Source: Pseudomonadota bacterium (lineage in GTDB: Bacteria; Pseudomonadota; Alphaproteobacteria; Dongiales; Dongiaceae). From it: a stretch of 64,000 nt of DNA. The notes under the pieces are model-generated. The model made no database searches. It was not told the DNA's origin and was given only the letters and a program-made list of their open reading frames with translations. Each line of letters begins with the position of its first letter. Position 1 is the stretch's first letter. A program made the position numbers and the translations under genes. The DNA is taken from NCBI GenBank assembly GCA_016183985.1, contig JACPDN010000010.1, forward strand, positions 62,001-126,000, given 5' to 3'. Below, piece by piece: positions 52,400-58,456 of this stretch.

Positions 52400-52918
52400 A
52401 TGACATTTTCCAGCGTTTTGCGCCGGATGGTATTCCTCGCCGCCGCAGCCCTGATAGGACTAGCCCTCATCGGATTCGGGTGCGGCATCGCCACGGCCGA
52501 GGACAAGCTGCCGCTGCCGCGCTTTGCCAGCCTGCAATCGGGCGAGGTCAATATGCGCGCCGGTCCCGGCGAGACCTATCCCATCATGTGGACCTATCAG
52601 CGCGCCGGCCTGCCGGTCGAGATCATCGAGGAATTCGATATCTGGCGCCGTATCCGCGACCATGACGGTGTCGTCGGCTGGGTGAAGTCGACCCTGCTGG
52701 TGGGCAAGCGCCATGTCATCGTGCGCGACAGCCAGCGGCCCTTGCGCGCCTCTGCCGAAGCCGGCGCCAAGCCGATAGCCTTCGTCGATCCCGGCGTCGT
52801 CCTCAAGGTTCTGGAATGCAGCGCCGATTGGTGCCGCCTGGAAGCCCAGGGCTATAAAGGCTGGATGATGAAGACCGAGTTCTGGGGCGTCTATCCACAG
52901 GAAACCCTGGAAGACTAG
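52400..52918 (+). CDS. Exported bacterial SH3-domain protein
   Basis: 172 aa. Signal segment RMVFLAAAALIGLALIGFGCGIATA (cleavage near TAEDK). Two SH3b-like units: SLQSGEVNMRAGPGETYPIMWTYQRAGLPVEIIEEFDIWRRIRDHDGVVGWVKSTLL and a second toward VLKVLECSADWCRLEAQGYKGWMMKTEFWGV. Such proteins bind periplasmic or cell-wall ligands. Divergent from the dehydrogenase and convergent with DUF3501. Confidence 0.87.
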   Translation: MTFSSVLRRMVFLAAAALIGLALIGFGCGIATAEDKLPLPRFASLQSGEVNMRAGPGETYPIMWTYQRAGLPVEIIEEFDIWRRIRDHDGVVGWVKSTLLVGKRHVIVRDSQRPLRASAEAGAKPIAFVDPGVVLKVLECSADWCRLEAQGYKGWMMKTEFWGVYPQETLED

Positions 52919-52928
52919 TCCAGATCCC

Positions 52929-53525
52929 CTAATCGAGATCACTGGCGAGGGCTTCGCGCGTCTCCTCGCCCATCACCGCCATATGGCCGTAGGCAGCGTG
53001 CGCGAAGCCGATGATGACCTGGGTGCCTGCCTGCTTGAAGGCCGCCGCTGCCGCGTCGGTGAAGGGGAAGTGAATGAACTGCACCGATGACGCTTTGCCC
53101 GCCTCATTGGTGCGGTCCTGGTCTTCTTCCGGCACGCCCTTCACTGTCTCGCTGCCGATCTTCAGGAAGGCTGCATGCTCTACGCCGCCGAGACGGCCGA
53201 GAAAATTGGCGCGGCGCACCGGGTCGTCAATCTCGAACATCACCGTCGCCACCAATTCGCGCCCTTGCGGAATGAGTGGATTATAGGCGCGCAATTCGTC
53301 GACGAGCTGTTCGTCGCCGCCCTTTTCGATGTGCAGCATCTCCTGCACCTGCTGCAGCATGGTGTCGAAATTCTCGAAATAGAAAGTGGCGACCGGCCCC
53401 ACCTCGACGCGACGCTTCTTCTTGAGCGCGACGACGGCTTGGCGCTTCTCGCGCCGCTGCTGGGCATATTCAGCCGCCGGCAGGACATCGGCCCTGGTGA
53501 TCTCTTTCTTGCGCAATGCGCTCAT
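52929..53525 (-). CDS. DUF3501 family protein
   Basis: 198 aa soluble protein. Recognised from MSALRKKEITRADVLPAAEY, the basic REKRQAVVALKKKRRVEVGP, and ATFYFENFDTMLQQVQEMLHIEKGG, and from its usual company. No catalytic motif evident. It is last in the minus-strand irr-rubrerythrin-Fe-S oxidoreductase-DUF3501 run. ATG 53525 has GAGGA seven bases upstream; ATG 53531 is too close to it. Confidence 0.82.
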   Translation of the reverse strand: MSALRKKEITRADVLPAAEYAQQRREKRQAVVALKKKRRVEVGPVATFYFENFDTMLQQVQEMLHIEKGGDEQLVDELRAYNPLIPQGRELVATVMFEIDDPVRRANFLGRLGGVEHAAFLKIGSETVKGVPEEDQDRTNEAGKASSVQFIHFPFTDAAAAAFKQAGTQVIIGFAHAAYGHMAVMGEETREALASDLD

Positions 53526-53552
53526 GGTCATTCCTCGTACTTCTTCTTGTGC

Positions 53553-53583
53553 CGTCACGCCCGCACTTGGTGCGGGGATGACG
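53553..53583. repeat. Family A repeat, half unit
   Basis: CGTCACGCCCGCAC-TTG-GTGCGGGGATGACG, an imperfect palindrome matching one arm of the family. It lies between DUF3501 and the Fe-S oxidoreductase gene, inside the presumed operon. Confidence 0.65.
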
Positions 53584-53601
53584 ATCGAGTCATCGCCCTT
53601 C

Positions 53602-54936
53602 CTACATCACCCCGTAAGCCCGGGCGAAGAGTTCGATCGGGTGCGGCGCCTGTTCTGCCGGTGGCTCACCCGGCTCAAGTGCACCTATGCCCTGCAGGAT
53701 ATGCGCGCCCGCCAGCGGGCATTCCGAGGCGACGTACTTTTTTGCGGCCTTGATCGCCTGGCGCGCGACTGGCTTGCCGATCTTGAGCGCCACCTCGAAA
53801 TTCTCGGCGAGCACGCCCCAGGCGCCGCCATGGCCGGAGCAACGCTCGATCACCGCCAGATCCGCGCCGGGGATGAGCTTCAGCATCTCGGTGGCCTTCT
53901 GGCCCATGTTCTGGGCACGCGCATGACAGGCGATGTGAAGCGCGACGCCACCGTCAAGCGGCTGCAGCCCCGGCGCCAGTCCTTCGCGCTTGGCAATATC
54001 GACGACATATTCGGCGACATCGAAAGTCGCGTTGGAAAGGCGCTTGATCTTGTCGTCATCGGGCAGGATCAGCGGCCATTCGAATTTCAGCATCAGCGCG
54101 CAGGACGGCACGAGCGCTATGACGTCGTAGCCCTGCTCGACATAGGGCAGCAGCACGTCGGCGACCGTTTGGGCATGTTCGGCGACGCGGGCCACATTGC
54201 CCTGCTCCAATTGCGGCATGCCGCAGCAGCGCGGATAGACGACCTCCGCAGCGATGCCGTTCTTGGCGAGCACCTTCAAAGTTGCCATGCCGATATCGGG
54301 GTTGTTGTAATTGGCAAAGCAGGTCGCATAGATGACCGCCTTGCGGCCATAAGCCGGCGCGTGCCTGTTGACCTCGAGCTTCTCCTCCATCGCGCGCAGC
54401 ACCAGGGTGCGGCCGTGGAATTTCGGCAGATGCGCGCGGTGATCGATGCCGACAACCTTCTCCATCACCTGGCGTGCTGCATTGTTATCGGCAAAGGCAT
54501 TGGCGATGGGCGCCACAATGCCGGCGGCCTTGCCGTTGCGGTCCGTCTCGGTGAGCTGCGCATAGATCTTATCGTTCTTGCCTTGGCGAAGCTCGGCAGC
54601 ACGGTAGCGCAGCATCAGATGCGGAAAATCAAGCGCCCATTCATGTGGCGGCACGTAAGGGCATTTGGTCATGAAGCAGAGGTCGCAGAGCGTGCAGGCA
54701 TCCACGACCTGCTTGTAATCAGCAGGCTTCACACCCGCCACTTCATCGGGGCTGGCGTCGACGAGATCGAAGAGGCGCGGGAAGGAGTCGCAAAGATTAA
54801 AGCAGCGCCTGCAGCCATGGCAGATATCGAAGACGCGATGCATCTCCGCATTGATCTTGTCCATGTCGTAGAAATCGGGGTTCTGCCAGTCGATCTTGTG
54901 GCGGAACGGTGCTTCCAGGCTGCCTTCGCGCATCAA
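53602..54936 (-). CDS. Fe-S oxidoreductase with heterodisulfide-reductase (CCG) domains, GlpC-like
   Basis: 444 aa. Two [4Fe-4S] ferredoxin motifs: [11 protein letters not shown] and [13 protein letters not shown] (about residues 39-95). Then a CCG domain with [20 protein letters not shown] and VPSCALML; the second CCG domain is partly degenerate ([10 protein letters not shown] in place of CCG). Members pass electrons in GlpC, HdrD and LutA-like complexes. Here it sits between rubrerythrin and DUF3501, so it could feed electrons to rubrerythrin, which lacks its own rubredoxin domain (inference). Confidence 0.87.
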
Positions 54937-55041
54937 CTTCCCTCAGCCGCTGGGTTGCAGGAGCAGTGGTTTGGAAATGATCGCAGCCACCGGTCCATCG
55001 CCTGAACCGGTGGCCAGGATCAAACCCGATCTCGGCAGAGA

Positions 55042-55461
55042 TCAGCCCAGCGTGTCGAGCGCTTTCTGGAAGCGGCCGGCATGGGACTTTTCGGCCTTGG
55101 CAAGGGTTTCGAACCAGTCGGCGATTTCGTCGAAGCCCTCTTCGCGCGCGGTGCGCGCCATGCCCGGATACATGTCGGTGTATTCGTGCGTCTCGCCAGC
55201 GATCGAGGCCTTGAGGTTCGGCGCGGTCGAACCGATGGGGAGGCCGGTTGCTGGATCGCCCACTTCCTCGAGGAATTCGAGATGGCCATGGGCATGGCCC
55301 GTCTCGCCTTCCGCCGTGGAGCGGAACACTGCGGCGACGTCGTTATAGCCTTCGACATCGGCCTTCTGTGCGAAATAGAGGTAACGGCGGTTCGCCTGGC
55401 TTTCGCCGGCAAAGGCGTCTTTCAGATTGCCTTCGGTCTTGGAGCCTTTCAGAGCAGCCAT
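55042..55461 (-). CDS. Rubrerythrin (diiron domain only)
   Basis: 139 aa ferritin-like four-helix protein. Diiron ligands appear in [39 protein letters not shown] and AEKSHAGRF. It lacks the C-terminal rubredoxin domain of classical rubrerythrin, so an external electron donor is needed for peroxide reduction. Start at ATG 55461 rather than the longer frame. It lies downstream of irr and upstream of the Fe-S oxidoreductase. Confidence 0.92.
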
Positions 55462-55572
55462 TTTCGTCTCCCTAGCTAAATGGGTTGCGGGGGCTTCTTG
55501 GTGCGGCGCTTCGTCACTCTCCCTGCCGTTGGCAGGAGGAAGGGCCGCGGACAAGCTCATGGATTGCCAGGA

Positions 55573-55602
55573 ATGCTAGGCCCGCCAGGATTACCCTGTC
55601 AA
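55573..55602 (-). promoter_or_regulatory. Sigma70-type promoter for rubrerythrin operon
   Basis: Minus strand TTGACA (55602-55597), 18-base spacer, TAGCAT (55578-55573). AT-rich CTTAAAACTATTCCAATCTG lies directly upstream and could hold an Irr site. Confidence 0.55.
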
Positions 55603-55654
55603 CAGATTGGAATAGTTTTAAGGAGATTGTTTAGTGACTGATCTGAATGCGGAT

Positions 55655-56074
55655 TTAAGAATTGTTCGCAAGCCGGACGATCACGTCGACGCGGGAGACT
55701 TTCATGCCCTCAGGCGGTTCGGGCAATTGGCTCAGGGCCACTTTATCCGCCGGAATATCCATCAGCCGACCTTCGCCTTCGACAAAGAAATGATGATGCG
55801 GCGTGACATTGTTATCGAAATAGGAGCGGCCCGGCTCCACGACGATCTCGCGCAGGAGACCGGCGCTCGTGAACTGATGCAGTGTGTTGTAGATCGTCGC
55901 CAATGAGACCTGGATACGGTTGCTAAGCGCCTCGGCATGGATGTCCTCGGCGGAAACGTGCCGGTCGCCACCTTCAAACAACAGCTTGGCAAGGGAAAGG
56001 CGCTGCCGGGTCGGCCGCAGGCCGGCATCCTTCAGCTTGGCGAGAATCGAGGTAAACGGTCGTTGGGTGTCCAT
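55655..56074 (-). CDS. irr: Fur-family regulator, Irr type
   Basis: 139 aa. HTH region LRPTRQRLSLAKLLFEGGDRHVSAEDIHAEA and SLATIYNTLHQFTSAGLLREI; the TPHHHFF metal/heme site is present. No C-terminal CxxC zinc pairs of Fur/PerR are seen, matching Irr. Irr controls iron metabolism in alphaproteobacteria according to heme/iron status. Placed upstream of rubrerythrin in the same direction, with a separate promoter in the gap. Confidence 0.88.
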   Translation of the reverse strand: MDTQRPFTSILAKLKDAGLRPTRQRLSLAKLLFEGGDRHVSAEDIHAEALSNRIQVSLATIYNTLHQFTSAGLLREIVVEPGRSYFDNNVTPHHHFFVEGEGRLMDIPADKVALSQLPEPPEGMKVSRVDVIVRLANNS

Positions 56075-56160
56075 GAAAAAAGCTTAATGCAAGCCGATCA
56101 GGGTGAAAAGCCGAAATCTAAAACCGCTCCAAGGCCCTGATCGGACAGTCTTTCTGGCTC

Positions 56161-58248
56161 TTAATTTCCGCCTTCCAGCTGCCGCTGCAGGGCGGCGGCC
56201 GCGTAATACTCGATGTAGTGATAGACCTTGGTTTCCAGCGCCGCTTTGACATGCGTCAAGGTGGCGGCCTTGTCCCCTTGGTCGAAGGCGCGGGCGGCCA
56301 TATAGAAATGCGCCTCGCAGAGCTGGTTGCGGATGTCCTCCGCCGACCCCTCATGCGCCTTGGTGATCAGGGTCTCGTCGTCGAACTTGCCCAGCATCCA
56401 TTTGATCAGCATGCCCGGCCAATCCTCGCGGTGTTTCTGCAACGTATTGCCGAGGAGTGTGCGCGCTGCCCCCGACTTGCCGTCGCGGCTGAGCAGCATG
56501 GCCTTCCATATCTGGCCGTAGCCATAGCCGTCATCCTCGGCGACCAGCCGGTCGGCCATATCGATCGCATCCTTGTCGCGCCCGGAAAGATAGAGAACGG
56601 CGATGCTCTGCAGGCTGTTGCGCGAGCCGTCATAGGCGATGGCGCGATTGGTGAATTCGATGGCTGCCTTCTCGTCGCCCTCGGCGAGTGCCATATAGCC
56701 GCGCGTCGCCAACAGATCGAAGCTCTCATCAATCGCCAGCGCTGCATCGAGATCGGCGGCAGCCTTCGCCGGATCGCCGGTATAGAGATAAGCGTTGCCG
56801 CGATTGTAATAATGCCAGTTGTTCTTCGGCTCCAGTTCGATGGCCCTGGTATAGGCAGCGATCGCTTCGTCATAGCGACCGGAATCAGAGAGGACGGCCG
56901 CGAGATTGCTGATGTAGTTCGGGTTGGCAGCGTCGTATTTCACCGCTTCACGATAGGCGGCCTCCGCGGCGTCGTATTTCTGCAGCCCATACTGCGCGCG
57001 GCCTACTTCATTGTTGAGGTCGGCGCGTGTCGCCGCATCGAGCCCGGTCGCAGTCAGTGCCATCTGGCAGGCGGCAAGGCGCCTCTCACCCGGCACCTTG
57101 TCGTCGCGGCACATATCGGCTGCCGCTTTGGGATCCAGCGGCGCGTCGGCGGGTGGTGTCGCTGGTGCTGCCGCCATTTGTTCGGCGTCTGCGGCCTCGC
57201 CAGTTTCGGCGACCTGCGTATCGCGCGCCGGTGCTGAAACAGGCGCCGTGTTGCCGGTCAACAGATTGAGCTTGTTATGCGCCAGTCGCGCAAAATTGCC
57301 CTTCGGGTATTGCTCGAGATAGGCCACGAAATCGGCCGGATCCTTGCTGTCCTTGACCGAGTTCCAGAAAGCAAGCTCCACCTCGCGGGCACCCTGATCG
57401 GCCTGAGCGGGTTGCGCCGACGAGCCATCGGCGGCCGCGGCCTGGGCCACGCTTTGGGCCGACTTATTGGCCGGCGTGAAATAGAACGGCGCGGTGAGCG
57501 AGGAGGATTCCCAGGGCGTCTGGGCATTCCCCGTTTCGCTCAGCACACTGCCGCGCACGTCGCGGAACGCCTCTTCGATGCTGAGCCCCGGGGTGACGAT
57601 GGCCTTGGCCAGTGCTGCGGTATAGGGGCTGTTGGCACCCTTGCCATCGGTCGCCACATCTCCCGGCGCCGTCGAATAGGCGACGAAGGAACCGCGCGGC
57701 GCCTCGATACGCGCGAGACCCATCTCAGCCGAGCGGAAGCTGCGCGGCAGCGGATTGTTACGGCAGGCATCGAGGATGATGATGTTGACGCGTGAATCAG
57801 CGAATTGCATCTGCTTCAAAACGGTATCCGCCGAGATCGCCTCGAGATCGACATCGGCCTCGCGCTTGATCTCGGCATGGACGGGAATGAGGTAGTTTTC
57901 ACCGGCAACCTGCAGGCCGTGGCCGGAGTAATAGAACAGCGCCGTCACATCCGCTCCGGCAGAGGTGAGCTTTTCGCCGAATTCACCGATGGCACGCTTC
58001 ATCGCCTTCTGATCCGCATCGGTAACGGCGATGACATCGAAGCCGGCCTGGGTCAGCGACCCGGCCATCAGCGTCGCATCGTTGACCGGGTTGGCAAGGC
58101 GGCCGAGCTCGCCGCCGTAATCGGCATTGCCGATGACCAGGGCGACACGGGGCTCCGCGTCGGCCCGGCCAAGACCCGCCGGTTGCAGAAGGACGGCGGC
58201 GGTGAGCACCATCAGCAGGCGCCAAGGATTGCGTGACAGAACCGGCAT
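56161..58248 (-). CDS. Secreted caspase-like peptidase (peptidase C14 / orthocaspase) with TPR repeats
   Basis: 695 aa. Signal peptide LLMVLTAAVLLQPAGLGRADA. The caspase-like domain (about 35-270) has RVALVIGNADYGGELGRLANPVNDA, catalytic His110 in YYSGHG and Cys162 in ILDACRNNP. A variable Ala/Pro-rich linker follows, then about five TPR units, e.g. YISNLAAVLSDSGRYDEAIAAYTRAIELEPKN. Both catalytic residues are present, so proteolysis is plausible, with arginine/lysine preference in most relatives. Divergent from the DMT transporter gene. Confidence 0.88.
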   Translation of the reverse strand: MPVLSRNPWRLLMVLTAAVLLQPAGLGRADAEPRVALVIGNADYGGELGRLANPVNDATLMAGSLTQAGFDVIAVTDADQKAMKRAIGEFGEKLTSAGADVTALFYYSGHGLQVAGENYLIPVHAEIKREADVDLEAISADTVLKQMQFADSRVNIIILDACRNNPLPRSFRSAEMGLARIEAPRGSFVAYSTAPGDVATDGKGANSPYTAALAKAIVTPGLSIEEAFRDVRGSVLSETGNAQTPWESSSLTAPFYFTPANKSAQSVAQAAAADGSSAQPAQADQGAREVELAFWNSVKDSKDPADFVAYLEQYPKGNFARLAHNKLNLLTGNTAPVSAPARDTQVAETGEAADAEQMAAAPATPPADAPLDPKAAADMCRDDKVPGERRLAACQMALTATGLDAATRADLNNEVGRAQYGLQKYDAAEAAYREAVKYDAANPNYISNLAAVLSDSGRYDEAIAAYTRAIELEPKNNWHYYNRGNAYLYTGDPAKAAADLDAALAIDESFDLLATRGYMALAEGDEKAAIEFTNRAIAYDGSRNSLQSIAVLYLSGRDKDAIDMADRLVAEDDGYGYGQIWKAMLLSRDGKSGAARTLLGNTLQKHREDWPGMLIKWMLGKFDDETLITKAHEGSAEDIRNQLCEAHFYMAARAFDQGDKAATLTHVKAALETKVYHYIEYYAAAALQRQLEGGN

Positions 58249-58456
58249 CTCGACCCATCCCTTTATTCTCACGAACCGGCGCCCCACCGGTTCTTCTTCC
58301 TTAGCGCGAAAGCCAAGCCCTTGGCCATGGGCCGAACTGTGATGACGCGCACCGGCCCCACACTTTCGCGGGTGCCATTTTCAGCGATGGTCCTCACCAG
58401 GCCGACCCGCTATGCTGGCCCTCTTCCCCGCACAATTCGTCAGATCGCCCCATTTC

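Follow-up and report, generated by a model that had tools for sequence, protein, structure and literature searches.

We describe a four-gene cluster, irr-rbr-RFO-DUF3501, in a 64,000-nucleotide stretch of an alphaproteobacterial genome of the Dongiaceae (contig JACPDN010000010.1, positions 62,001 to 126,000; the whole stretch is called the window below), and propose that it is probably an operon whose products reduce peroxide without heme and whose expression is switched by iron or heme. It encodes Irr, a Fur-family regulator, a rubrerythrin (RBR), an Fe-S oxidoreductase (RFO) and a protein of family DUF3501. The three-protein system RBR-RFO-DUF3501 (the trio) and the proposal of electron transfer within it are already known. 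What is new is the linkage to Irr with its promoter geometry, a contrast between RBRs that have kept and lost their partners, and a set of viral cassettes; an earlier prediction of an Irr box before rbr is possible.

A first-pass annotation, made from the letters alone, had placed four same-strand genes at 52929-56074 and called them a peroxide/iron module. Searches against family models confirmed the four genes, their common strand and their families; the module reading fits overall, and it is partly supported and largely anticipated in print. The irr product scored 210.4 bits against NCBIfam NF045678 IrrA (cut-off 150) and 191.5 bits against Irr (cut-off 170), and the HxH heme-binding motif was found as HHH at 93-95, with H93 and H95 invariant in 29 aligned sequences. 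The genome has three Fur-family genes, of which only the window's copy lies above the Irr cut-offs, the other two being far below. RBR contains no cysteine among its 139 residues and has no rubredoxin domain, as had been annotated; its match to PF02915 stands besides a Ferritin overlap, and against classical rubrerythrin (NCBIfam NF045767) it reached 139.5 bits, below the cut-off of 200, with no C-terminal rubredoxin domain. Residues E20, E53, H56, E90, E93, E124 and H127 are conserved in the alignment and are presumably the ligands of the di-iron site. Structural relatives are 1j30 (sulerythrin) and 4di0, both assigned to group 4 of the rubrerythrins (PMC5114695).

The ferredoxin motifs of RFO, annotated as intact, are indeed two and complete (C38/41/44/48 and C80/83/86/91), and are invariant in 37 aligned sequences. 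Invariant CCG cysteines fall in a first region (C205, C236, C237, C278) and a second (C336, C365, C405), a set that we take to be smaller than the pair of full HdrB-type sites. RFO matched PF02754 (CCG) at 37.4 bits and a GlpC-like model at 197 bits, the two matches on which its COG0247-type assignment rests, and missed the GlpC equivalog cut-offs of NCBIfam (197.2 vs 278 and 136.7 vs 279.9 bits). A predicted model (mean pLDDT 87.6) was matched by Foldseek to LutA (4.8e-10), EtfD (1.9e-7) and HdrB (5.1e-7). The DUF3501 protein passed the PF12007 cut-off of 25 bits by a wide margin, and its predicted model (pLDDT 93.3) had a sole significant Foldseek match, 3fjv, which belongs to the same family and whose solved structure is still unexplained; the fold gave no function beyond that, the match after 3fjv having an E-value of 0.028 and a TM-score of 0.21. 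A relationship to BchY was put down to chance (NCBIfam 22.7 bits vs a cut-off of 425). The closest named DUF3501 matches, at 79-80% identity, come from an uncultured Dongia sp. and a Dongia mobilis metagenome-assembled genome, and DUF3501 and RBR each have one match in the window's genome. The start of RFO was taken as the ATG at 54933; the list of open reading frames has a TTG one codon earlier.

Features of the irr-rbr-RFO-DUF3501 cluster in the window (aa, amino acids; nt, nucleotides; ICE, iron control element)
Feature	Position	Strand	Details
irr, Fur-family iron/heme regulator, 139 aa	55655..56074	minus	PF01475, NCBIfam IrrA
ICE-like Irr box CTTAAAACTATTCCAAT	55606-55622	minus	10/14 consensus letters, 3 nt ahead of the TTGACA -35 hexamer
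Putative rbr promoter	55573..55602	minus	TTGACA 55602-55597, 18-nt spacer, TAGCAT 55578-55573
rbr, aerobic-type rubrerythrin without rubredoxin domain, 139 aa	55042..55461	minus	PF02915
RFO, GlpC/HdrB/LutA-like Fe-S oxidoreductase, two ferredoxin motifs and CCG-type cysteines, 443 aa	53602..54933	minus	PF02754
DUF3501 protein, 200 aa	52929..53531	minus	PF12007, 202.7 bits

The check on co-occurrence proposed in the first-pass annotation showed that RBR, RFO and DUF3501 lie on one strand and in that order at 74 of 80 loci from named genomes and at 40 of 40 from a second genome set. Five of the six exceptions were cut by a contig end; L083 was not. Over both sets, RFO is flanked by rbr and DUF3501 at 114 of 120 loci, and irr is directly upstream of the trio in 53 of the 74 and 20 of the 40 ordered loci. 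The neighborhood is widely conserved and is not chance; the refuting outcome named in the first-pass annotation, a lack of such conservation in related genomes, did not occur. In a phylum-wide draw DUF3501 was found in 24 of 398 genomes, the window's included, and the other 23 all had the trio; among alphaproteobacterial genomes it was found in 138 of the 289 searched. Matches to irr were listed for at least 147 of these 289, the weaker SAR11-type irr genes falling below those listed. Among the irr matches listed, 114 genomes had both genes, 33 irr only, 24 DUF3501 only and 118 neither, counts that are not independent since the species share ancestry, and on which a p-value would be unreliable. 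Of the 114 genomes listed with both, 99 had irr on the same strand 1.5-4.5 kb upstream of DUF3501; of the remaining 15, 13 have the two genes on different assembly contigs, and two of those 13 (G660 and G574) kept irr, RBR and RFO together with DUF3501 elsewhere in the assembly. No open frame joining two of the four proteins was seen in the loci searched for fusions; RFO-DUF3501 fusions occur in Nitrosomonas (PMC5114695). An Irr tree, built to see if rbr linkage is the ancestral state, could not separate gain from loss: its 93 rows (139 columns) took in no more than 5 of the 26 SAR11 loci and no short locus of L001-L031, 43 of its 89 inner branches were open, and rbr linkage was scattered over it with 17 changes.

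The first-pass annotation had also suggested a search for an Irr box near 55600-55640, and a box is present there. Boxes were scored with a TTTAGAA-N3-TTCTAAA-like pattern of 14 letters, taken as the consensus, against dinucleotide shuffles as the null. A box of at least 9/14 letters followed by TTGAC within 12 nt was found in 43 of 46 Irr-linked loci outside SAR11 (0.26 in shuffles), in 25 of 26 SAR11 Irr-linked loci (1.58 in shuffles), and in 3 of 38 loci without a linked irr. With the window included, the positioned box thus precedes the -35 of rbr in 68 of 72 Irr-linked loci (about 2 in shuffles); 62 of the 68 have a gap of 3 or 4 nt from box to TTGAC, and the remaining six one of 5 or 6 nt. 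Two of the four loci that failed (L034, L161) have 8 letters at the same place. Position and conservation support the prediction that Irr binds the candidate ICE just upstream of the rbr -35.

Several results weigh against reading too much into the box itself. At 11/14 letters or better, a box anywhere in the 200 nt before rbr was found in 47 of 53 Irr-linked loci and also in 14 of 19 unlinked ones, mostly Methylocystis (where it lies 66-71 nt ahead of the rbr start codon), so only its place sets the Irr-linked loci apart. The window's own box is weak and unremarkable alone (shuffle p = 0.04). The rbr promoter is the sole promoter-like site in 52850-56200; as shuffles give 1.1 such sites, it is notable only through its position beside the ICE. 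A strict pattern with up to 2 mismatches occurred at 3 places in the window's genome vs 6 for the control, and we therefore claim no ICE regulon there.

Other sites were seen before these genes. In SAR11, irr itself often has an ICE-like site 20-56 nt ahead of its start. The palindrome TTTAGATTGATTCTAAA precedes rbr by 69 nt at L139 and 86 nt at L146, one in a genome outside the class and the other in an alphaproteobacterium whose trio is unlike that of its relatives, which suggests transfer of the trio with its control site. Outside the Irr-linked set, Fur-like palindromes of the TTGAGAA..TTATCAA type stand before rbr in L140, L143, L147, L158 and L159, so that Fur-family control of rbr may be wider.

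Genomes that have lost the partners of RBR gave a second line of evidence. Forty irr loci were taken, 34 from the 33 irr-only genomes and 6 from the 15 with irr placed elsewhere. At nine of them, in nine genomes of five families (L183, L185, L194, L202, L203, L204, L211, L212, L213), irr stands beside RBR in a genome without DUF3501 or a recognisable RFO; a search for RFO found no match at E 1e-10 in six of these genomes, and in the other three a 31% match confined to residues 200-375. Identity of the partner-less RBRs to the closest partnered one is 60-83%. Conservation across 112 partnered RBRs reaches 97% or more at 88 positions; 51 of these were unchanged in all five partner-less families, while G19, H92 and G100 were altered in five of five and Y94 and D96 in four of five. 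When changes were placed at random, with one RBR per family and under a null that assumes every position equally free to change, 0 of 20,000 draws reached as many shared positions. The contrast holds within a genus: the five residues are all kept in G057, which has the trio, and all lost in G561 and G649, which lack it. All nine partner-less RBRs have intact E20, E53, H56, E90, E124 and H127, which are putative metal ligands, and five of the nine have D in place of E93. Before rbr, one of the nine loci has an ICE of 12 letters, the best match in the others being 6-8 letters.

These losses do not all point to a docking surface. G19, H92 and Y94 are common to the classical rubrerythrin of D. vulgaris, and sulerythrin has Y, W and Q at positions 92, 94 and 96; since the lost residues are thus partly shared with the one and different in the other, they need not mark a docking face, and partner loss may mean loss of peroxidase function instead. 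The nine genomes, in keeping irr-rbr without a recognisable RFO, also count against RFO as the electron donor. H92 as a strict mark of the partners was weakened by the Y found at this position in the partnered RBR of L141 and in sulerythrin, which makes a docking patch one reading and tuning near the di-iron site another.

Viral sequences offered the reverse situation. At least 414 viral stretches in IMG/VR encode an RBR relative, and we examined the best 80 of these 414 (L237-L316; 49 distinct sequences, 50 with the isolate Mosig), reading their neighbors over flanks of up to 2 kb. These RBRs showed 80-87% identity, and RFO, DUF3501 and irr were absent from the flanks of all 80. G19, H92, Y94 and D96 are nevertheless kept in 80 of 80 and G100 in 76 of 80. 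Peroxiredoxin was seen in the flanks of 9 of the 80. The Pelagibacter phage Mosig EXVC030M carries the same five residues in a protein annotated as putative rubrerythrin, its gene placed between a hypothetical gene and one for a single-stranded DNA-binding (SSB) protein; Ca. Pelagibacter ubique HTCC9565, a relative of the Mosig host, has irr-RBR-RFO-DUF3501 (L090). In a further 19 viral contigs (L318-L336, up to ~400 kb) RBR is directly followed by DUF3501, with no RFO in the flanks (0 of 19). Their RBRs reach no more than 73-77% identity with the nearest partnered sequence and keep the five residues in 19 of 19, except for G100 (18 of 19). These pairs were found with an alignment as the DUF3501 query, a single sequence having given 0 matches. 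A scan of the viral collection for RFO relatives gave none; its two short patterns recognise 132 of 133 RFOs from Alphaproteobacteria and 8 of 10 from elsewhere, so that some RFOs could escape it. Among 50,697 phage records DUF3501 had 0 matches, and RFO had a single partial match at 27%. Eight more phage records, whose proteins show 39-45% identity, lie outside the examined viral set. The viral origin is based on IMG/VR labels, on nearby phage genes at some loci (a Mosig-like or SSB gene in the flanks of 27 of the 80; PHROG matches for 7 of 10 neighbors tried) and on the Mosig isolate; contamination with host DNA is possible for the other contigs, the RBR-DUF3501 contigs above all. A literature search on rubrerythrin, phage and auxiliary metabolic genes returned no paper devoted by its title to viral RBR.

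The simplest account is that viruses bring RBR and the host supplies the missing partner or partners, so that the residues stay. The drift of RBR close to the di-iron ligands in cells that have lost both partners, together with the residues kept in viral RBRs, supports functional coupling: as far as sequences can tell, RBR-RFO-DUF3501 would be a functional unit in which RBR depends on RFO and DUF3501. As to which partner matters, the viral pairs hint at DUF3501 as the closer one.

We propose the following mechanism. RBR would reduce H2O2 or an organic peroxide at its di-iron site, a reaction established in a relative with a single domain. The part of the missing rubredoxin domain would fall to RFO, a GlpC/LutA-like Fe-S relay that would pass electrons back to RBR; the conserved operon and the RBR changes where RFO and DUF3501 were lost support this. 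DUF3501 may serve RBR alone, helping it to dock, assemble or stay stable, and the need for it may be closer than that for RFO, as the viral pairs in which no RFO was found suggest. Irr would bind the predicted ICE, and heme-free Irr would switch the operon on in iron or heme shortage, a direction that we hold to be slightly the likelier in a nearly balanced case. The heme-free peroxidase could then cover for heme catalases during that shortage, a role for and against which we see about equal grounds. The claim of the first-pass annotation that the Fe-S protein feeds electrons to RBR is thus strengthened by the partner-loss changes and weakened by the nine genomes without RFO and by the donors used by ferriperoxin (below); its view of DUF3501 as an accessory is supported by the pairs in 19 viral contigs.

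That Irr adjusts the operon to iron, as first annotated, draws support from synteny and from an ICE at a near-fixed distance from the -35; its effect may be activation or repression. Irr is reported to bind the ICE without heme, and apo-Irr to activate or repress by the position of the site (PMC7762939). A serious possibility, which we rate somewhat below an even chance, is that Irr represses the operon in low iron to spare iron. The trio would then be induced under ample iron and heme, at a time when peroxide chemistry driven by iron is a threat. Repression is described for known Irr targets, mbfA being one. In Rhodobacter sphaeroides ccpA, whose start lies ~40 nt downstream of its Irr box, expression is slightly higher without Irr in iron limitation (PMC3413700), which suggests weak repression at a similar spacing. 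The Methylocystis boxes lie downstream of a TTGGAC element (called by eye) and could block the -10, and SAR11 rbr promoters have a second ICE-like site over the spacer and the -10 (e.g. L059, L072, L095), which could repress rbr. In sulphur-limited stationary Pelagibacter, rbr mRNA falls to 0.17 while the protein rises 2.24 (PMC5069961), a further reason for caution over the direction. However, the box ends just upstream of the -35, without overlap, in the 68 of 72 Irr-linked loci, and Pelagibacter rbr rises 1.57-fold rather than falls in iron limitation (PMC2864753), which favors activation by Irr.

The role of RFO and of RBR itself could also be read otherwise. RBR might be fed by general donors, ferredoxin or ferredoxin:NADPH reductase (FNR), with RFO serving elsewhere, for example in quinone-linked signalling or di-iron site repair. 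This we find rather unlikely: RFO lies between rbr and DUF3501 at nearly every locus, and RBRs without RFO and DUF3501 drift at otherwise near-invariant positions. Its grounds are the activity of ferriperoxin in vitro with NADPH and FNR (PMC3317640), the occurrence of RBR and DUF3501 without RFO in Thermoproteales (PMC5114695), and our own finding of irr-rbr kept without a recognisable RFO in nine alphaproteobacterial genomes and of RBR-DUF3501 viral contigs in which no RFO was found. Alternatively RBR could act chiefly as a ferroxidase or in iron handling, with the operon serving to detoxify iron, hence its control by Irr; Pelagibacter rbr is annotated as a hypothetical ferroxidase (PMC2864753), and Irr governs other ferritin-like proteins, mbfA among them in published descriptions. 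We consider this improbable, because ferriperoxin, the relative studied biochemically, acts as a peroxidase on which aerobic growth depends (PMC3317640), and an operon-encoded Fe-S relay would suit a reductase cycle better than a ferroxidase.

Returning to heme-free peroxide reduction under Irr, a wider and more speculative picture can be drawn, which we put forward tentatively. The trio operon may be an old home of Irr, where it senses heme shortage and switches on a heme-free peroxidase; RBR and DUF3501 would be the transferable core and RFO an electron port fixed in the cell. Phages, including a Pelagibacter isolate, would add an RBR that plugs into the RFO and DUF3501 of the host, and the residues around G19 and H92-G100 would record this dependence. 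The 2016 paper that described the system (PMC5114695) left two questions, how electrons reach aerobic-type rubrerythrins and what DUF3501 does; the trio is also present in mitochondria of some protists (PMC7050145). The ICE geometry, the loss cases (one of them within a genus) and the viral cassettes lead to specific tests, of the partner of G19, H92 and G100 and of the direction of Irr control.

Adjoining irr in the window is an open reading frame of 708 amino acids (56161-58287, minus strand) which by eye resembles a caspase-type domain with TPR repeats.

The closest known system is that of Cardenas et al., who in 2016 described an RBR lineage with conserved neighbors DUF3501 and RFO, the three together in 185 genomes, proposed that RFO compensates for the lost rubredoxin domain, and left open how RBR works where DUF3501 alone accompanies it (PMC5114695). 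The window's operon shares with it the three families, their co-location, the missing rubredoxin domain and the electron-transfer proposal, and differs in having irr and a promoter marked by an ICE at its head; neither Irr nor regulation is a word used in the main text of that paper. The remark in the first-pass annotation that no such electron route is settled therefore holds in that the papers leave it unproven, but the trio and the RFO proposal were already in print. Ferriperoxin of Hydrogenobacter thermophilus and sulerythrin of Sulfolobus tokodaii (1j30) are single-domain rubrerythrins of the same lineage as the window's RBR. Ferriperoxin is a proven peroxidase, required for aerobic growth, but its assay used NADPH and FNR, not RFO (PMC3317640), a point against RFO as the donor. 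RFO resembles GlpC, LutA, EtfD and HdrB in combining ferredoxin and CCG domains; unlike them it sits with rbr and DUF3501, not with dehydrogenase subunits, and it falls below the GlpC cut-off. The mbfA gene of rhizobia and Rhodobacter is likewise a rubrerythrin-like gene governed by Irr and an ICE box, but in the accounts available its product is a membrane-bound ferritin for iron efflux and its box, which lies across the core promoter or the start, is a repressing one.

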